This document shows, piece after piece, positions 13,591 through 19,349 of a stretch of DNA of 43,036 nt. The translations under genes and the position numbers were made by a program. The stretch spans positions 1 to 43,036 of the forward strand of contig JAJCXZ010000071.1 of the NCBI GenBank assembly GCA_029263175.1. Direction: 5' to 3'. The notes under the pieces were generated by a model. The model did no database searches and was not told the DNA's origin. It saw nothing but the letters and a program-made list of their open reading frames with translations. The DNA is from Acidimicrobiales bacterium (lineage in GTDB: Bacteria; Actinomycetota; Acidimicrobiia; Acidimicrobiales; Aldehydirespiratoraceae). Positions within the stretch are counted from its first letter, which is position 1; each line of letters begins with the position of its first letter.

Positions 13591-14579
13591 CGGTTGATGA
13601 GCGCGGCAAGCTTTCGCACTGCTTTGATTCGCCGCGGGCGGAAACAGAGGTAGTCGACCGAGCCGCCCTCGGGCGCCCACTTCGTCTTGTAGTAGCTGTG
13701 ATCAGCATCGAAGTCGAACCACTCGACATCGCCTCGCTCGATCCCAGACTCGACCGTGATCTCGATGAGACGATTGCCGAGCCCGTGCCATTCGTAGCCA
13801 TCCTCGCGGTGGATTTCGATCATGTACATGGTCCCGCCCATCACCACCGAGACCTGGCCGCCAATCGGCTTTTGGTCATCGAACAGCCGAATGACCTGCA
13901 GTTCCCCGCGGTCGAGCAGGTGCTGACAGAAGCGAACGTAGCCCGCGAAGCCGACCTGCGACATGTCCCACTTTTCGTAGAACTTCCGTGGCACCCAATT
14001 GGCACCCTCCGGAGCATTCACTTCAAGACGAAAGCCTGCACACCGGGTCTGAGCCTGCTTGAGGGTTCTTCGGTGCTTCTTGCTCCAGTTCTCGCGAATC
14101 TCGCCGGCTCGTGCCCGATGTGAGGTCTTGCGCACGACCACATCAGCGCCGACGTGGTCAGGATCGATCGCGCTGTCCCACAACGAGCAGGCGAGTTCGA
14201 CGCCGAGCGCTCGAGCGGCCGGCTCGAAGGATCCGGCTCGCATCGGGAACGGATCGCCGGGCAGCACCTCGCTCGTCACGACCTCCCACGCCAGGGAGGC
14301 CGCTCGCGCGATGCCGACCACCGCCATCGGCCCACCGCGATCCTCGACGAGTGCGATGCGGTGGTCGCGCTCAAAGGGTCCTTCGCAGAGCAGGCGGTAG
14401 GTCTCCCGGGAATACGGGTGTGGCTGAGGGAGTTGCAGGAGCGCGTCTTCGAGCTCCGGCACCCACGCTTCGAACCACCGCACTCGAATGCCGCCGCGGC
14501 GGCGCGTGATCAGGAAACTCGGCGAGTCCAACAACCGGACCAGCCGGCCCCGGATGCTTGTCTCGTAGGCAGCAGTCAC
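13587..14579 (-). CDS. GNAT-type / FemAB-like acyltransferase
   Basis: A 330-residue protein that looks like the two-domain GNAT (Acetyltransf_6, BioF2-like) or FemAB group. The segments SKKHRRTLKQAQTRCAGFRLEV, FYEKWDMSQVGFAGYVRFCQHLLDRGELQVIRLFDDQKPIGGQVSVVMGG and WFDFDADHSYYKTKWAPEGGSVDYLCF fit this fold. Such proteins transfer acyl or aminoacyl groups in envelope or polysaccharide synthesis; the substrate is unknown. Start chosen: GTG at 14579, preceded by GAGGAG at a good distance. An in-frame ATG at 14666 would leave only 2 nt to the divergent gene. It converges on panC with overlapping stop codons. Confidence 0.75.
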   Translation of the reverse strand: MTAAYETSIRGRLVRLLDSPSFLITRRRGGIRVRWFEAWVPELEDALLQLPQPHPYSRETYRLLCEGPFERDHRIALVEDRGGPMAVVGIARAASLAWEVVTSEVLPGDPFPMRAGSFEPAARALGVELACSLWDSAIDPDHVGADVVVRKTSHRARAGEIRENWSKKHRRTLKQAQTRCAGFRLEVNAPEGANWVPRKFYEKWDMSQVGFAGYVRFCQHLLDRGELQVIRLFDDQKPIGGQVSVVMGGTMYMIEIHREDGYEWHGLGNRLIEITVESGIERGDVEWFDFDADHSYYKTKWAPEGGSVDYLCFRPRRIKAVRKLAALINR

Positions 14580-14654
14580 GTTGGTCTCCTCGACGCGATG
14601 CGCTCGAGGGCGCCCACCGAAGCTTAGGACTCTTCGGATCGCCGACTCGACAAC

Positions 14655-14660
14655 TACCTT
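14655..14660 (+). promoter_or_regulatory. Putative -10 element of the acyl-CoA ligase gene
   Basis: TACCTT ends 8 nt before the ATG at 14669, within the 89-bp divergent region 14580-14668. The opposite gene in that region has a Shine-Dalgarno instead. Confidence 0.35.
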
Positions 14661-14668
14661 CGACATCC

Positions 14669-16258
14669 ATGACGAACCTGGCAGATTCGATCCGGTCCGC
14701 GAAGTTGGCGGTGGAGTCCGGCCGCGACGTTCCCTGGCTGCTGCGCTCGGCAGTCGAAAAGAGCCCGAACAAGCCCTTCCTGATCTGGGAACCGTTCACC
14801 GGTGAGGCAGAGACGTGGTCCTACGCTCGCTTCCGCGACGAGGTTCGCGCCGTGGCTGCCTCGATGCAGGAACGGGGTGTGGAGGTCGGCGATCGTGTGC
14901 TCCTTCATCTCGACAACTCACCGGAGTTCGTCCTGAGCTGGTTCGCGTGTGCGGAGATGGGCGCGGTTGCGGTCTCGACCAATACCCGGTCCGTTGCCCG
15001 CGACATGACGTATTTTGCCGATCACGCCGGCGTGGTGGCGGCGATCACGTCCCCGAAATTCGCCGACCTGGTCAGCGAGAGCGCCCCCAACATCCGCTTC
15101 CTGTCCGTTACCGAATCGGATGCAGGTGAGCCGGCCTCAATCGCTGAGCTTCCCGAGCACGTGCAGTTTGCAGATCTCCTGCGCCCGGAGGGTGGCCTCG
15201 CGGAGCGGTCGGCCGACCCGATGGCCAACCTCGGGATCCAGTTCACGTCGGGAACGACGTCGCGCCCCAAGGCCGTGTTGTGGACTCACGCGAACGCACT
15301 CTGGGGCGCCGAGGTCAACGTGGCTCACATGCGCCTTCACCACGACGACATCACCCTCGCATTCCTACCCCTGTTCCACACCAACGCCCAGTCGTACTCC
15401 ATGCTGAGCACCCTGTGGTCGGGTGGCACGATGGTGGTGCAGCCTCGATTCTCGGCCTCGAGGTTCTGGGACGTGTCGGTGAGAAACCGGGTGACGTGGT
15501 GCTCGCTCATCGGCTTTGCGGTCAAGGCCATTTTGACCCACGACGTGCCGGCCGAGCACTTCTACCGATTCTGGGGACCCGCCGTGCGCCTCCCCGAGGT
15601 GGAGGAAGCGCTCGGTATCCAGACGATCGGCTGGTGGGGTATGACCGAGACCATCACCCAGGGAATCTTGGGGAGTATGGAGCATCCGGGGCCGCGGCTG
15701 TCGATCGGGCGTCCATCGTCGTCCTATGAGATCAGCGTGCGGCGAGACGACGGCACAACCATCGAGCCCGGCGAACGTGGTTCGCTCTACATCCGCGGCG
15801 TGCGGGGGGTCAGCTTGTTCAAGGAGTACTTCGGGAATGCGGAGGCGACCGCGGCAGCGTTCGACGACGATGGTTGGTTCGACACCGGTGATCTCATCAC
15901 GATGGGCGAAGACGGCTCGCTGTTCTTCAGTGACCGAGCCAAAGACATGCTCAAGGTCGGTGCCGAGAATGTGGCGGCATCGGAGATCGAAGCTGTGATC
16001 ATGGAGTCGAGTCTGGTCGCGGAGTGCGCCGTGGTCGGGCAACGGCACACAATGCTCGACGAGGTGCCGGTGGCGTTCGTCATCCCCCGGGTGCCGGGTG
16101 AGGACGTCTCCGCCCGCGTGATCGATGCATGTGTCGCGAATCTGGCGGACTTCAAGGTGCCGTGGGCGGTCCATGTCGTTGATGAGCTGCCGCGGTCCAC
16201 CCTCGAGAAGATTGCCAAAGCCGAGCTTCGGAAGGGTCTGCCGACGCTCACCTCGTAG
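14669..16258 (+). CDS. Acyl-CoA synthetase (AMP-dependent ligase)
   Basis: A 529-residue ANL-superfamily enzyme that activates a carboxylic acid as the AMP ester and transfers it to CoA. The phosphate loop FTSGTTSRPKAVLWTH spans 192-207. GWWGMTET, DDGWFDTGD, FFSDRAKDMLKVGAENVAASEIE and the C-terminal lysine motif STLEKIAKAEL are intact, so it should be active. The substrate is not evident; it is an aryl- or fatty-acyl-type ligase. A longer in-frame ORF from 14558 is rejected because it crosses the promoter region. A thiolase gene downstream suggests a shared role in fatty or aromatic acid degradation. Confidence 0.88.
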   Translation: MTNLADSIRSAKLAVESGRDVPWLLRSAVEKSPNKPFLIWEPFTGEAETWSYARFRDEVRAVAASMQERGVEVGDRVLLHLDNSPEFVLSWFACAEMGAVAVSTNTRSVARDMTYFADHAGVVAAITSPKFADLVSESAPNIRFLSVTESDAGEPASIAELPEHVQFADLLRPEGGLAERSADPMANLGIQFTSGTTSRPKAVLWTHANALWGAEVNVAHMRLHHDDITLAFLPLFHTNAQSYSMLSTLWSGGTMVVQPRFSASRFWDVSVRNRVTWCSLIGFAVKAILTHDVPAEHFYRFWGPAVRLPEVEEALGIQTIGWWGMTETITQGILGSMEHPGPRLSIGRPSSSYEISVRRDDGTTIEPGERGSLYIRGVRGVSLFKEYFGNAEATAAAFDDDGWFDTGDLITMGEDGSLFFSDRAKDMLKVGAENVAASEIEAVIMESSLVAECAVVGQRHTMLDEVPVAFVIPRVPGEDVSARVIDACVANLADFKVPWAVHVVDELPRSTLEKIAKAELRKGLPTLTS

Positions 16259-16374: not shown

Positions 16375-16381
16375 GGAGGAG
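16375..16381 (+). promoter_or_regulatory. Shine-Dalgarno of the solute-binding lipoprotein
   Basis: GGAGGAG lies 3 nt upstream of ATG 16385 and fixes that start, so the signal peptide begins there rather than at the longer in-frame alternative at 16310. Confidence 0.7.
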
Positions 16382-16384
16382 AAG

Positions 16385-18082
16385 ATGAGCAAACGACTCA
16401 TTGGGCCGGTGGCCCTTCTGTTGAGCCTCACGTTCGTCACAAGTGCGTGCGGAATCATCGGTGGGGACGACGCGGGCGACACCGCCCCGGACGCCGACGT
16501 GGCCGTATCCGTCGAGGACGATGGCACCGATGCATCGGCCACCGACAGCGAAGAGGTCGATGCTTCCGCTGACACGACCGAGGACACCGTCGTATCGCCT
16601 CCGGCCCCTGCCTCTTCCTCATACTCCGGCCCGAGCCTTGCCGGTCTCGATGTGGTCGACGGCCTCACGTTCACTGTCACACTCACCGAGGCCGATCCCG
16701 ACTTTCCCGAGCGTCTCGCCCACATGGGTTTCGCGCCGCTGCCGTCGGCATTCTTCGATGATCCCGTCGCTTTCGAGGACGCCCCGGTCGGGAATGGACC
16801 CTTCATGATGGACGGCGTATGGGAGCACGCGACGTCGATCCGTCTCGTGCCGAACACCAGCTACGCCGGAGCGACCCCCGCGAGTCTCACCAGCCTCACC
16901 TTCAACATCTATGACGAGGTGTGCGCCGACGGATACCTCCACGCCCAAGCCGCCTACATCGACCTTGCCGAGTGCATCCCAGCTGAGCAGTTGTCGTACG
17001 TGGCCGATGACTTCGGCGCCGGCTATGACCGATCAGCAGCGATGGATATCCACTACTACGCGTTCCCGGCCTACCTGTGGGGCGAGTATCCGCTGGACCT
17101 GCGGCGGGCGATGTCGATGGCGATCGACCGTCAGGCGATCGTCGACGAGGTCCTGCTGGGTTCGGTGACCGCGGCCGACCGTGCCGTTCCGCCCGTGCTT
17201 TCCGAGTTCGGGTCAGCAGCGTGTGCCAACTGGGTCTTCGACCCGGAGGGAGCCCGTGCAGCCTTCGCCGCGTACGGTGGACTCGAAGCCCTTGGCGAGA
17301 CACCCATTGTTCTCTGGCACGGTGCGGATGACACGCAGGCGGCGGTCGCAGCCGCAATAGCGGGACAACTCGGCGATGTGCTCGACATCTCCGATGTGGT
17401 GATCGAGAGCCGCCCTTCAACCGAGTATCTCGACCTCGTCGACGACCAGCTGGTCACCGGTCCCGCCCAGGGCGAGTGGACCGCCGGCTACCTGTCGCCC
17501 CTGAGCTTCCTCGAACCCCTCTTCGGTTCGGGCTCCTCGTCGAACTCGATCGGGTACAGCAGCTCCCGGTTCGACCAGGCCGTTGCCAACGGAGACATCG
17601 AGGGAGCCGAGCGGGCCCTGTGTGACGACGTGGGAGTCGTGCCCCTCTACTCCGGCGGCAACCACTACGTGTCGAACCTCGGTGTGGCCAATGCCTTCAA
17701 GGACGTGCGCGGCCACATGAACTGGACGGAGATGACCGGCGGCGACACCGTCGCCGCCCTTGCCGAGCCACAGCGGCTCGCCCCGCCCGTCGCGAAGGAT
17801 TCCGAGGGCCTCGAAGTGCTGGAGACCCTCTTCAGCAATCTTGTCGAGTACGACCACCGCAGTCGCCGACTCGAGAACGTGGTGGCCGAGTCGATCGAGA
17901 CGAACGACGACGGCCGCACATGGACCATCACGGTGGCCGATGGCTGGACATTCCATGACGGGGAGCGGGTTTCCGCCTACTCGTTCGTCGATGCCTGGAA
18001 CTGGACGGCAAACGGCGAGAACGCGGCGGCCAACAACGTCTACTTCAATGTGATCGACGGCTGGGATTCTCTCAACGGTTGA
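16385..18082 (+). CDS. Family-5 solute-binding lipoprotein, circularly permuted
   Basis: A 565-residue secreted lipoprotein. The signal peptide MSKRLIGPVALLLSLTFVTS leads to C22 (TSAC, a slightly atypical lipobox), then an acidic Ser/Thr linker to about residue 80. The rest matches oligopeptide/dipeptide-binding proteins (SBP_bac_5), but in permuted order. Residues 83-450 hold what is normally the middle and end of the domain: VVDGLTFTVTLTEADPDFPE, PVGNGPFMM, the DLRRAMSMAIDRQAIV helix and a terminal VVPLYSGGNHYVSNLG. Residues 452-565 hold what is normally the N-terminus: AEPQRLAPP, LFSNLVEYDHRSRRLENVVAES, DDGRTWTITVADGWTFHDGE, SFVDAWNW. No permease or ATPase genes are nearby, so the ligand and partner are unknown. 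Confidence 0.85.
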   Translation: MSKRLIGPVALLLSLTFVTSACGIIGGDDAGDTAPDADVAVSVEDDGTDASATDSEEVDASADTTEDTVVSPPAPASSSYSGPSLAGLDVVDGLTFTVTLTEADPDFPERLAHMGFAPLPSAFFDDPVAFEDAPVGNGPFMMDGVWEHATSIRLVPNTSYAGATPASLTSLTFNIYDEVCADGYLHAQAAYIDLAECIPAEQLSYVADDFGAGYDRSAAMDIHYYAFPAYLWGEYPLDLRRAMSMAIDRQAIVDEVLLGSVTAADRAVPPVLSEFGSAACANWVFDPEGARAAFAAYGGLEALGETPIVLWHGADDTQAAVAAAIAGQLGDVLDISDVVIESRPSTEYLDLVDDQLVTGPAQGEWTAGYLSPLSFLEPLFGSGSSSNSIGYSSSRFDQAVANGDIEGAERALCDDVGVVPLYSGGNHYVSNLGVANAFKDVRGHMNWTEMTGGDTVAALAEPQRLAPPVAKDSEGLEVLETLFSNLVEYDHRSRRLENVVAESIETNDDGRTWTITVADGWTFHDGERVSAYSFVDAWNWTANGENAAANNVYFNVIDGWDSLNG

Positions 18083-18125: not shown

Positions 18126-19349
18126 ATGTCTGAGGCCTACATCATTGACGCGTGCCGCACACCCCGCGGTATCGGCAAACAAGGCAAGGGAGCCCTCGCT
18201 CACCTGCACCCGCAGCACCTCGGTTCGACCGTGCTGCGAGCGATCCAGGAGCGCAACGGCTTCGACACCGCCGACGTCGACGACGTCGTCTGGGGTACCA
18301 GTTCGCAAGTCATGGAGCAGTCCGGCGATCTCGGTCGAATGTCGGCCCTCGATGCCGGCTACGACGTCAAGGCCAGTGGCGTGACCCTCGACCGCTTCTG
18401 CGGGTCGGGTATCACCTCGGCCAACATCGCCGCAGCCACTGTGATGGCGGGGATGGAGGATCTCGTGATCTCCGGAGGCACCGAGATGATGTCGCTGCCG
18501 AAGAAGGGGATGATGCCGATGGGAGCCGGCAATGCGCACCTCCAGGAGATTCACCCCCAGTCACACCAGGGTGTGTGCGCTGACGCCATCGCCACCCTCG
18601 AAGGCATCCCCCGCACCGCCCTGGACGCGCTCGCCGCGGAGTCGCAGGCCCGCGCCGAAGTGGCCATCAAGGAGGGCCGCTTCGACAAGTCGCTCATTCC
18701 CGTGCTCAACACGGACGGGTCGGTGGCGCTCGATCGGGAAGAGTTCCCTCGGCCGGGCACCACAGCAGAGTCGTTGGCCGCGCTGGCTCCGAGCTTTCCC
18801 GCCATAGCCGACTACCGCCATGCCGACGACGCCAAAACCTTCCGCGAGCTGATCCTCCAGAAGTTCCCGGACCTCGATATTCAACACGTACATCACGCCG
18901 GCAACTCGTCGGGCGTGGTCGACGGCGCGGCCGCGATCCTGTGGGGCAGCGAGGACTATGTCCAGGCTCATGGGCTCAGACCTCGTGCCCGTCTCGTCGC
19001 CAGTGCGAACATGGGTGACGATCCGACACTGATGCTGAACGCCCCAGTGCCCGCGGCCCACAAAGTCCTGGCCCGGGCCGGCATGACGCTCGACGACATC
19101 GACCTCTTCGAGATCAACGAGGCGTTCGCCGTGGTGGCCGAGAAGTTCCAGCGCGATCTCGATCTTGATCGCAGCAAGGTCAACGTCAACGGGGGAGCGA
19201 TGGCGTTGGGCCACCCCATCGGCGCGACTGGCGCCGTCCTCATCGGCACGGTGCTCGACGAGCTCGAGCGCCAGGACAAGCAGGTGGGTCTGATCACCAT
19301 GTGCGCGGGCGGCGGCATGGCACCTGCCATCATCATCGAACGCGTCTAG
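18126..19349 (+). CDS. Acetyl-CoA C-acyltransferase (thiolase)
   Basis: A 407-residue thiolase that cleaves 3-ketoacyl-CoA or condenses acetyl-CoA. The nucleophile is C92 in DRFCGSGITSAN, the catalytic histidine H363 in ALGHPIGATG, and the second cysteine C393 in MCAGGGMAP; INEAFA is also present. Start ATG 18126 has GAGGAG 4 nt upstream. It probably acts with an acyl-CoA ligase such as the one two genes upstream in beta-oxidation, but specificity cannot be read from sequence. The Ddn-like gene follows 10 nt later. Confidence 0.93.
   Translation: MSEAYIIDACRTPRGIGKQGKGALAHLHPQHLGSTVLRAIQERNGFDTADVDDVVWGTSSQVMEQSGDLGRMSALDAGYDVKASGVTLDRFCGSGITSANIAAATVMAGMEDLVISGGTEMMSLPKKGMMPMGAGNAHLQEIHPQSHQGVCADAIATLEGIPRTALDALAAESQARAEVAIKEGRFDKSLIPVLNTDGSVALDREEFPRPGTTAESLAALAPSFPAIADYRHADDAKTFRELILQKFPDLDIQHVHHAGNSSGVVDGAAAILWGSEDYVQAHGLRPRARLVASANMGDDPTLMLNAPVPAAHKVLARAGMTLDDIDLFEINEAFAVVAEKFQRDLDLDRSKVNVNGGAMALGHPIGATGAVLIGTVLDELERQDKQVGLITMCAGGGMAPAIIIERV

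Follow-up and report, generated by a model that had tools for sequence, protein, structure and literature searches.

Solute-binding proteins (SBPs) with circularly permuted topology are already known from cluster B and from the betaine-binding proteins, and the surprising part of the results presented here is the repeated origin of such proteins. TpMglB-2 (Tp0684) of Treponema pallidum, classified as 'Type Ic / Cluster Bc', is a naturally permuted, membrane-tethered SBP that, according to the available excerpts of its description (PMC4990184), has its N-terminal strands near the C-terminus; the same excerpts give anchoring as a possible reason for the permutation. The protein analysed here is likewise permuted and, as judged from its sequence only, membrane-anchored. 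However, TpMglB-2 is a Type I/cluster B sugar-binding protein representing one permuted family, whereas the present case concerns cluster C proteins of the peptide type, with several origins and breakpoints. Circularly permuted relations of glycine betaine-binding proteins were reported by CPSARST in the accessible part of that publication (PMC2395249); these proteins form another SBP group, and the relation is a structural one within pairs of PDB entries, not one of repeated events inside a single sequence family. Among the SBP_bac_5 (cluster C) proteins, DppA of Mycobacterium tuberculosis (Mtb; Rv3666c; PDB 7jls, 6e3d and 8wd9) shares with our protein the sequence family, the fold of the main block and the pocket Trp, but the latter is permuted, has Gly in place of D445 and lacks transporter genes beside its own gene. 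No report of a permuted SBP_bac_5 protein was found in the open-licence PMC literature, to which the search was confined.

The window, that is, the whole stretch of 43,036 nucleotides that was analysed, is the entire contig C71 of genome G000, a 4.4-Mb draft in 111 contigs. A preliminary description had interpreted one of its genes as encoding a naturally circularly permuted family-5 solute-binding lipoprotein, read in one continuous frame behind a good ribosome-binding site and starting with a signal peptide, lipobox and acidic linker. All of these elements were recognised again in the nucleotide sequence and its translation, the lipobox Cys also by a script with a permissive pattern (Table 1). 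The complete protein matched PF00496 with 161.1 bits against a curated cut-off of 32.4, and no other Pfam family was matched at E ≤ 1, so that the protein does not fall within the Type I (MglB-like) sugar-binding family. There were two matches to PF00496, and aligning both blocks to this profile, as had been proposed as a check, placed the best stretch, residues 67–386, on profile positions 45–367 and the isolated C-terminal piece on positions 3–61; the two blocks are thus swapped and depart from the co-linear domain order of SBP_bac_5. Mtb DppA was the best relative by sequence among solved structures, and it too aligned in swapped order, residues 461–564 of the window protein corresponding to 18–119 of the Mtb DppA chain and residues 79–422 to 124–486. 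Taken together, these matches place the start of the window domain near residue 120 of the mature normal protein, and its end at the point where that residue would come next. In tblastn comparisons with 19 genome_contigs loci, three records from the same genus were co-linear with the window protein (L047 from residue 27) and the other 16 had the blocks in normal order. The window protein is therefore confirmed as a DppA/OppA-type (family-5) SBP that carries its first ~110 mature residues at the C-terminus. The boundaries originally suggested (domain from about residue 83, moved block from residue 452) were correct to within a few residues, and the new ends, which had been assigned to a loop, fall between predicted secondary-structure elements of the normal-order homologue L033. 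No remnant of a signal peptide was seen in the sequence of the junction EMTGGD.

Table 1. Features of the permuted SBP gene and its surroundings in the window.
Feature	Position	Strand	Evidence
Permuted family-5 solute-binding lipoprotein, 565 aa, single open frame from ATG (16385) to TGA (18080–18082)	16385..18082	+	Frame, PF00496, Mtb DppA alignments, genus homologues
GGAGGAG, ribosome-binding-like site, ATG 3 nt downstream	16375..16381	+	Read in sequence
Signal peptide to Cys22, lipobox-like TSAC	16385..16450	+	Sequence and script pattern
Acidic low-complexity linker, residues 23–82, pLDDT <50 up to residue 72	16451..16630	+	Sequence, model
Main block, residues 83–448, equivalent to mature residue ~120 to C-terminus of a normal protein	16631..17728	+	Pfam, Mtb DppA alignments, tblastn
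Gly368, aligned with the Asp that binds the peptide amine (D436 of E. coli DppA, D445 of Mtb DppA)	17486..17488	+	Alignments
Junction EMTGGD, residues 449–454, old C-terminus meeting old N-terminus	17729..17746	+	Alignments
Moved N-terminal block, residues 455–565	17747..18079	+	Pfam, Mtb DppA alignments, tblastn
AMP-binding enzyme gene, upstream of SBP gene	14558..16258	+	Homologue at the same place in only G001 among three other genus loci
Thiolase gene, downstream of SBP gene	18126..19349	+	Adjacent in 4/4 genus loci

The draft state of the window genome, and the contamination estimated at 6% for the other genomes of the genus, would be compatible with a misassembly, with frameshifted tandem genes or with a decaying pseudogene. 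Such an origin of the swapped order deserves hardly any credence, however, and assembly error and pseudogene were ruled out by conservation in four genomes, common downstream genes and purifying selection. Identical block order and downstream genes were observed in all four genus genomes examined, which were assembled separately; pairwise identities were 65–85%, and the window protein was 69–75% identical to its three genus homologues, with 71–75% in the search that recovered them as full-length, co-linear matches. At E ≤ 1e-20, none of the remaining 47 genomes of the family (51 in total) had a full-length match, and three of them matched the main block alone. Within the genus, dN/dS (Nei-Gojobori) was 0.11–0.23 for the whole SBP gene, 0.34–0.56 for signal and linker, 0.05–0.30 for the junction and 0.065–0.082 for the moved block, which is under the strongest purifying selection; the ratios are rough, since dS reached 2.5. 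The downstream thiolase was 93–95% identical to that of the window in the three other loci, indicating that the SBP gene evolves faster than its neighbour. The same topology class was also present in the single-contig genomes G1414 and G1272. Natural circular permutation, as claimed initially, is hence the supported reading of the window gene. A chimera, in which the C-terminal block would derive from another SBP gene and not from the same ancestral protein, was raised by the authors of TpMglB-2 for their protein (available excerpts of PMC4990184) and would agree with the unequal identities of the two blocks to L033 (52% and 38%), but L033 was the best match for both blocks among the normal-order loci compared by tblastn, and we regard a chimeric origin as very improbable.

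Structure prediction with AlphaFold2 used 20 rows for the window protein and 10 rows for the normal-order control L033. The best model of the window protein had a mean pLDDT of 76.6 and a pTM of 0.70 (80.8 and 0.79 for the control); its five models differed, with mean pLDDT falling from 76.6 to 51.0. Values were below 50 for residues 1–72, and ten-residue means were 66–95 from residue 451 to the end. Solved SBP5 structures matched only residues ~76–453 of the model in VIA-align, 7jls_A being the best match (Z 23.8, rmsd 3.3 over 369 residues), and Foldseek, which printed no ranges, gave many longer alignments at rmsd 7–10. Correct folding of the permuted protein remains an inference: there is no experiment, and how the moved block packs is not shown.

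Further permuted proteins were searched for using profiles of the junction between old C-terminus and old N-terminus, which normal proteins match only by halves. A first profile, comprising four real rows and six joined from normal sequences, gave spanning rows in five of the 397 order genomes searched (E ≤ 1e-22). A second, made from nine real permuted proteins, gave a spanning row in 54 of 395 genomes of the class and in seven of 396 phylum genomes, three of the latter outside the class (E ≤ 1e-26), and, at E ≤ 1e-30, in 4/150 genomes from the family and 10/327 from the order of G983 and in 3/66 from the class of G785. These genome samples overlap and do not constitute a census, and genomes for which no locus was fetched are counted from their junction rows alone. 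Every one of the 82 fetched ORF records with a spanning profile match (duplicates included at that stage) was permuted, and the fetched proteins comprised 68 different verified permuted proteins and 61 of normal order. Left out of this set were L161, which is a duplicate, L163, in which the 5′ part is out of frame, and a second, short ORF of L157. Nearly all of the 68 were from Actinomycetota, with one from Bacillota. Beyond Actinomycetota, only plasmid records were searched, with a single tblastn query, and three were examined among the 20 listed of 63 records: L178 (Bacillota, Subdoligranulum variabile) was permuted at breakpoint 1, and L177 (Deinococcus) and L179 (Rhodobacter) had normal order. 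L177 nevertheless gave an uninterrupted match to residues 22–225 of the junction query, which shows that spanning in tblastn does not by itself prove permutation. The search of related genomes recommended in the preliminary description thus found the same order in all four genus genomes examined and beyond the genus; the permutation described there is real, but it is not a lone case, the window protein belonging to a permuted clade, most other members of which are linked to transporter genes, in a family with several permutation events.

Four different cut points were observed. On a 500-column model, breakpoint 1 lies at column ~120 (54 proteins, including that of the window), breakpoint 2 at column 272 (one protein, L089 = L118), breakpoint 3 at column 340 (12 proteins) and breakpoint 4 at column 394 (one protein, L157). 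The corresponding residues on the predicted model of L033 are ~184, 344, 409–412 and 462–466, all located between predicted helices or strands. L157 (1249–3009) is the lone case of breakpoint 4 inside a clade otherwise of breakpoint 3. Breakpoints 3 and 4 grouped together in a 90-row quick tree (SH-aLRT 98), and four breakpoint-3 proteins (L092, L155, L156 and L162) and L157 had TKADG at the junction in common, from which we infer that one fused ancestor may have been trimmed in two ways.

A 106-row tree, calculated from an alignment that does not depend on how the blocks are ordered, required four changes between permuted and normal order, as did a careful 67-row tree of a subset of these rows; the 90-row quick tree required six. 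The 67-row and 90-row trees omit 39 of the 106 rows, namely 12 long-branch normal sequences, 21 from clade 2 and six from Saccharothrix. Clade 1, in which the SBPs of the window genus sit on a long branch, had support of 99/96 in the 67-row tree, with normal-order L033 as its sister (99/95), and clade 2 had 100/100. Clade 2 represents a different subfamily, among whose closest solved relatives is E. coli DppA (1dpp), a soluble periplasmic protein of normal order; L070 matched it with an E-value of 5.1e-74, the blocks again being swapped, and 8z1y with 1.5e-74. The 14 relatives that a search of 148 class genomes turned up at E ≤ 1e-70 all belong to the rows verified as permuted.

The nearly identical breakpoint and the junction G-x-D of clades 1 and 2 could be taken to suggest a single ancient permutation that was reversed later in many lineages, and since the trees are unrooted, the direction of change is assumed. 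This scenario is very improbable, given that AU tests rejected a single clade of all breakpoint-1 rows (p 1.2e-4) and a union of clade 1 with breakpoints 2–4 (p 1.6e-6), and that the breakpoints differ. Placement of L178 with clade 2 was weakly rejected (p 0.044), that of L158 with clade 1 was not (p 0.40), and breakpoint 2 as a separate origin is based on its place in the tree and its cut point, without an AU test of its own. Despite the six changes in the 90-row tree, we therefore conclude that there were at least four independent permutations, four being a floor.

Outside the genus, DppB/DppC-like peptide-ABC permease genes adjoin 39 of the 41 permuted genes whose neighbours were examined (40 of the 64 verified ones, plus L163), suggesting that these permuted proteins are probably ordinary working binding proteins. 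In longer stretches this applied to 25 of 26 genes, the exception being L114, and the permease genes were usually followed by ATPase genes; in further stretches it applied to 14 of 15 (L163 counted), with none in the 3.6-kb stretch of L170. Only the start of a permease is visible at the contig end of L109, the transporter genes of L178 are upstream of the SBP gene, and at L067–L071 six permeases and one ATPase were confirmed with Pfam. At L070 (2294–11293), a normal-order SBP5 operon is situated directly upstream of the permuted-SBP operon in the same orientation, and the two SBPs fall in different parts of the tree. In the window genus, no Dpp/Opp permease or ATPase genes were found by the SBP gene in the window or in three stretches of 18–20 kb (0/4), and PF00528 is absent from the whole of C71, which agrees with the earlier statement that the window copy has no transporter neighbours.

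According to the parts of the publications that were available, R383 and D436 of E. coli DppA bind the dipeptide ends and a double mutant lacks binding (PMC12136057), and W442 and D445 of Mtb DppA are conserved peptide-pocket residues (PMC6751184). The column of D436/D445 was located from the window–Mtb DppA and L070–1dpp alignments. The pocket Trp is retained in the window protein, but the acidic residue binding the peptide amine is not, Gly being observed in all four genus members. Asp was present in all 64 permuted rows outside the genus and in 45 of 61 normal-order rows, the remaining 16 (one of them a gap) lacking it, so that its loss alone is no proof of lost peptide binding. L114 (6464–8359; G602), a second orphan permuted SBP on a long branch, retains the pocket Asp. 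In addition, 25 of 139 near-invariant columns, defined on 12 related rows from outside the genus (11 permuted of clade-1 type and normal-order L033), were altered in all four genus rows. Given the role of D436/D445 in DppA, the change from Asp to Gly makes a changed ligand likely for the window-genus protein, an inference drawn from alignments and not shown; the ligand is unknown. Being an orphan does not rule out a role in transport, and the window protein could be an extra permuted SBP still serving a peptide importer encoded elsewhere: three other SBP5 genes of G000 are close to permeases (two on C49, one on C101), whose transporters it might serve. As these places have their own SBP genes, and in view of the Gly and the altered columns, we consider this possible but rather unlikely.

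We hold it to be highly probable that the window gene encodes a genuine, conserved circular permutant of a DppA/OppA-type (SBP_bac_5) lipoprotein that is now orphaned and re-specialised. Its ancestral ends are linked through about three residues (GGD), new ends were created in the variable stretch behind the first ~110 mature residues, and the new N-terminus now carries the lipoprotein signal and acidic linker. Circular permutants are usually explained by duplication and fusion with subsequent trimming of the outer parts, and tandem duplication followed by these steps is the most likely origin here as well, although this is inferred and no fused intermediate was seen, none having been specifically sought. 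Within clade 1, its ancestors very probably served a peptide ABC importer as binding proteins, as inferred from the transporter-linked sisters; in the window genus, the gene is remote from any transporter operon, the ligand-amine Asp is lost and the branch is long, and the protein most likely now acts on its own as a membrane-anchored binding protein whose ligand has changed.

Of the permuted proteins that could be judged, 62 of 65 had a lipobox according to a permissive pattern, as did 51 of 57 normal ones, and the median linker length was 45 residues in the permuted set versus 20 in the normal one (the taxa differ). This distribution fits anchoring as the reason for the permutation but does not test it, as normal-order relatives are mostly lipoproteins too, and the explanation remains inferred. 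Tentatively, and with more doubt than conviction, we suggest that cluster C SBPs of mainly Gram-positive bacteria, where they are lipid-anchored, were permuted repeatedly (at least four times, with four cut points) because this moves the tether to another face, and that in the window genus this released a permuted copy from its transporter, allowing it to turn into a new sensor or scavenger anchored in the membrane.

A large nutrient-uptake family with several independent permutations at different cut points, in proteins apparently serving real importers, constitutes a natural experiment on domain order, folding and tether position in binding proteins. It also provides cut points of natural origin that could be used in designing biosensors, and is a warning that annotation by profile hides topology. 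Two further genes were noted. L163 (G1368, 817–2493), from a single-contig genome, is a permuted SBP gene that seems to be out of frame in its 5′ part, through either decay or sequencing error. L057, on contig C72 of the window genome, is a further SBP5-like ORF with only a partial match to PF00496, preceded by genes that, from their sequences, we take to be tpiA and secG.
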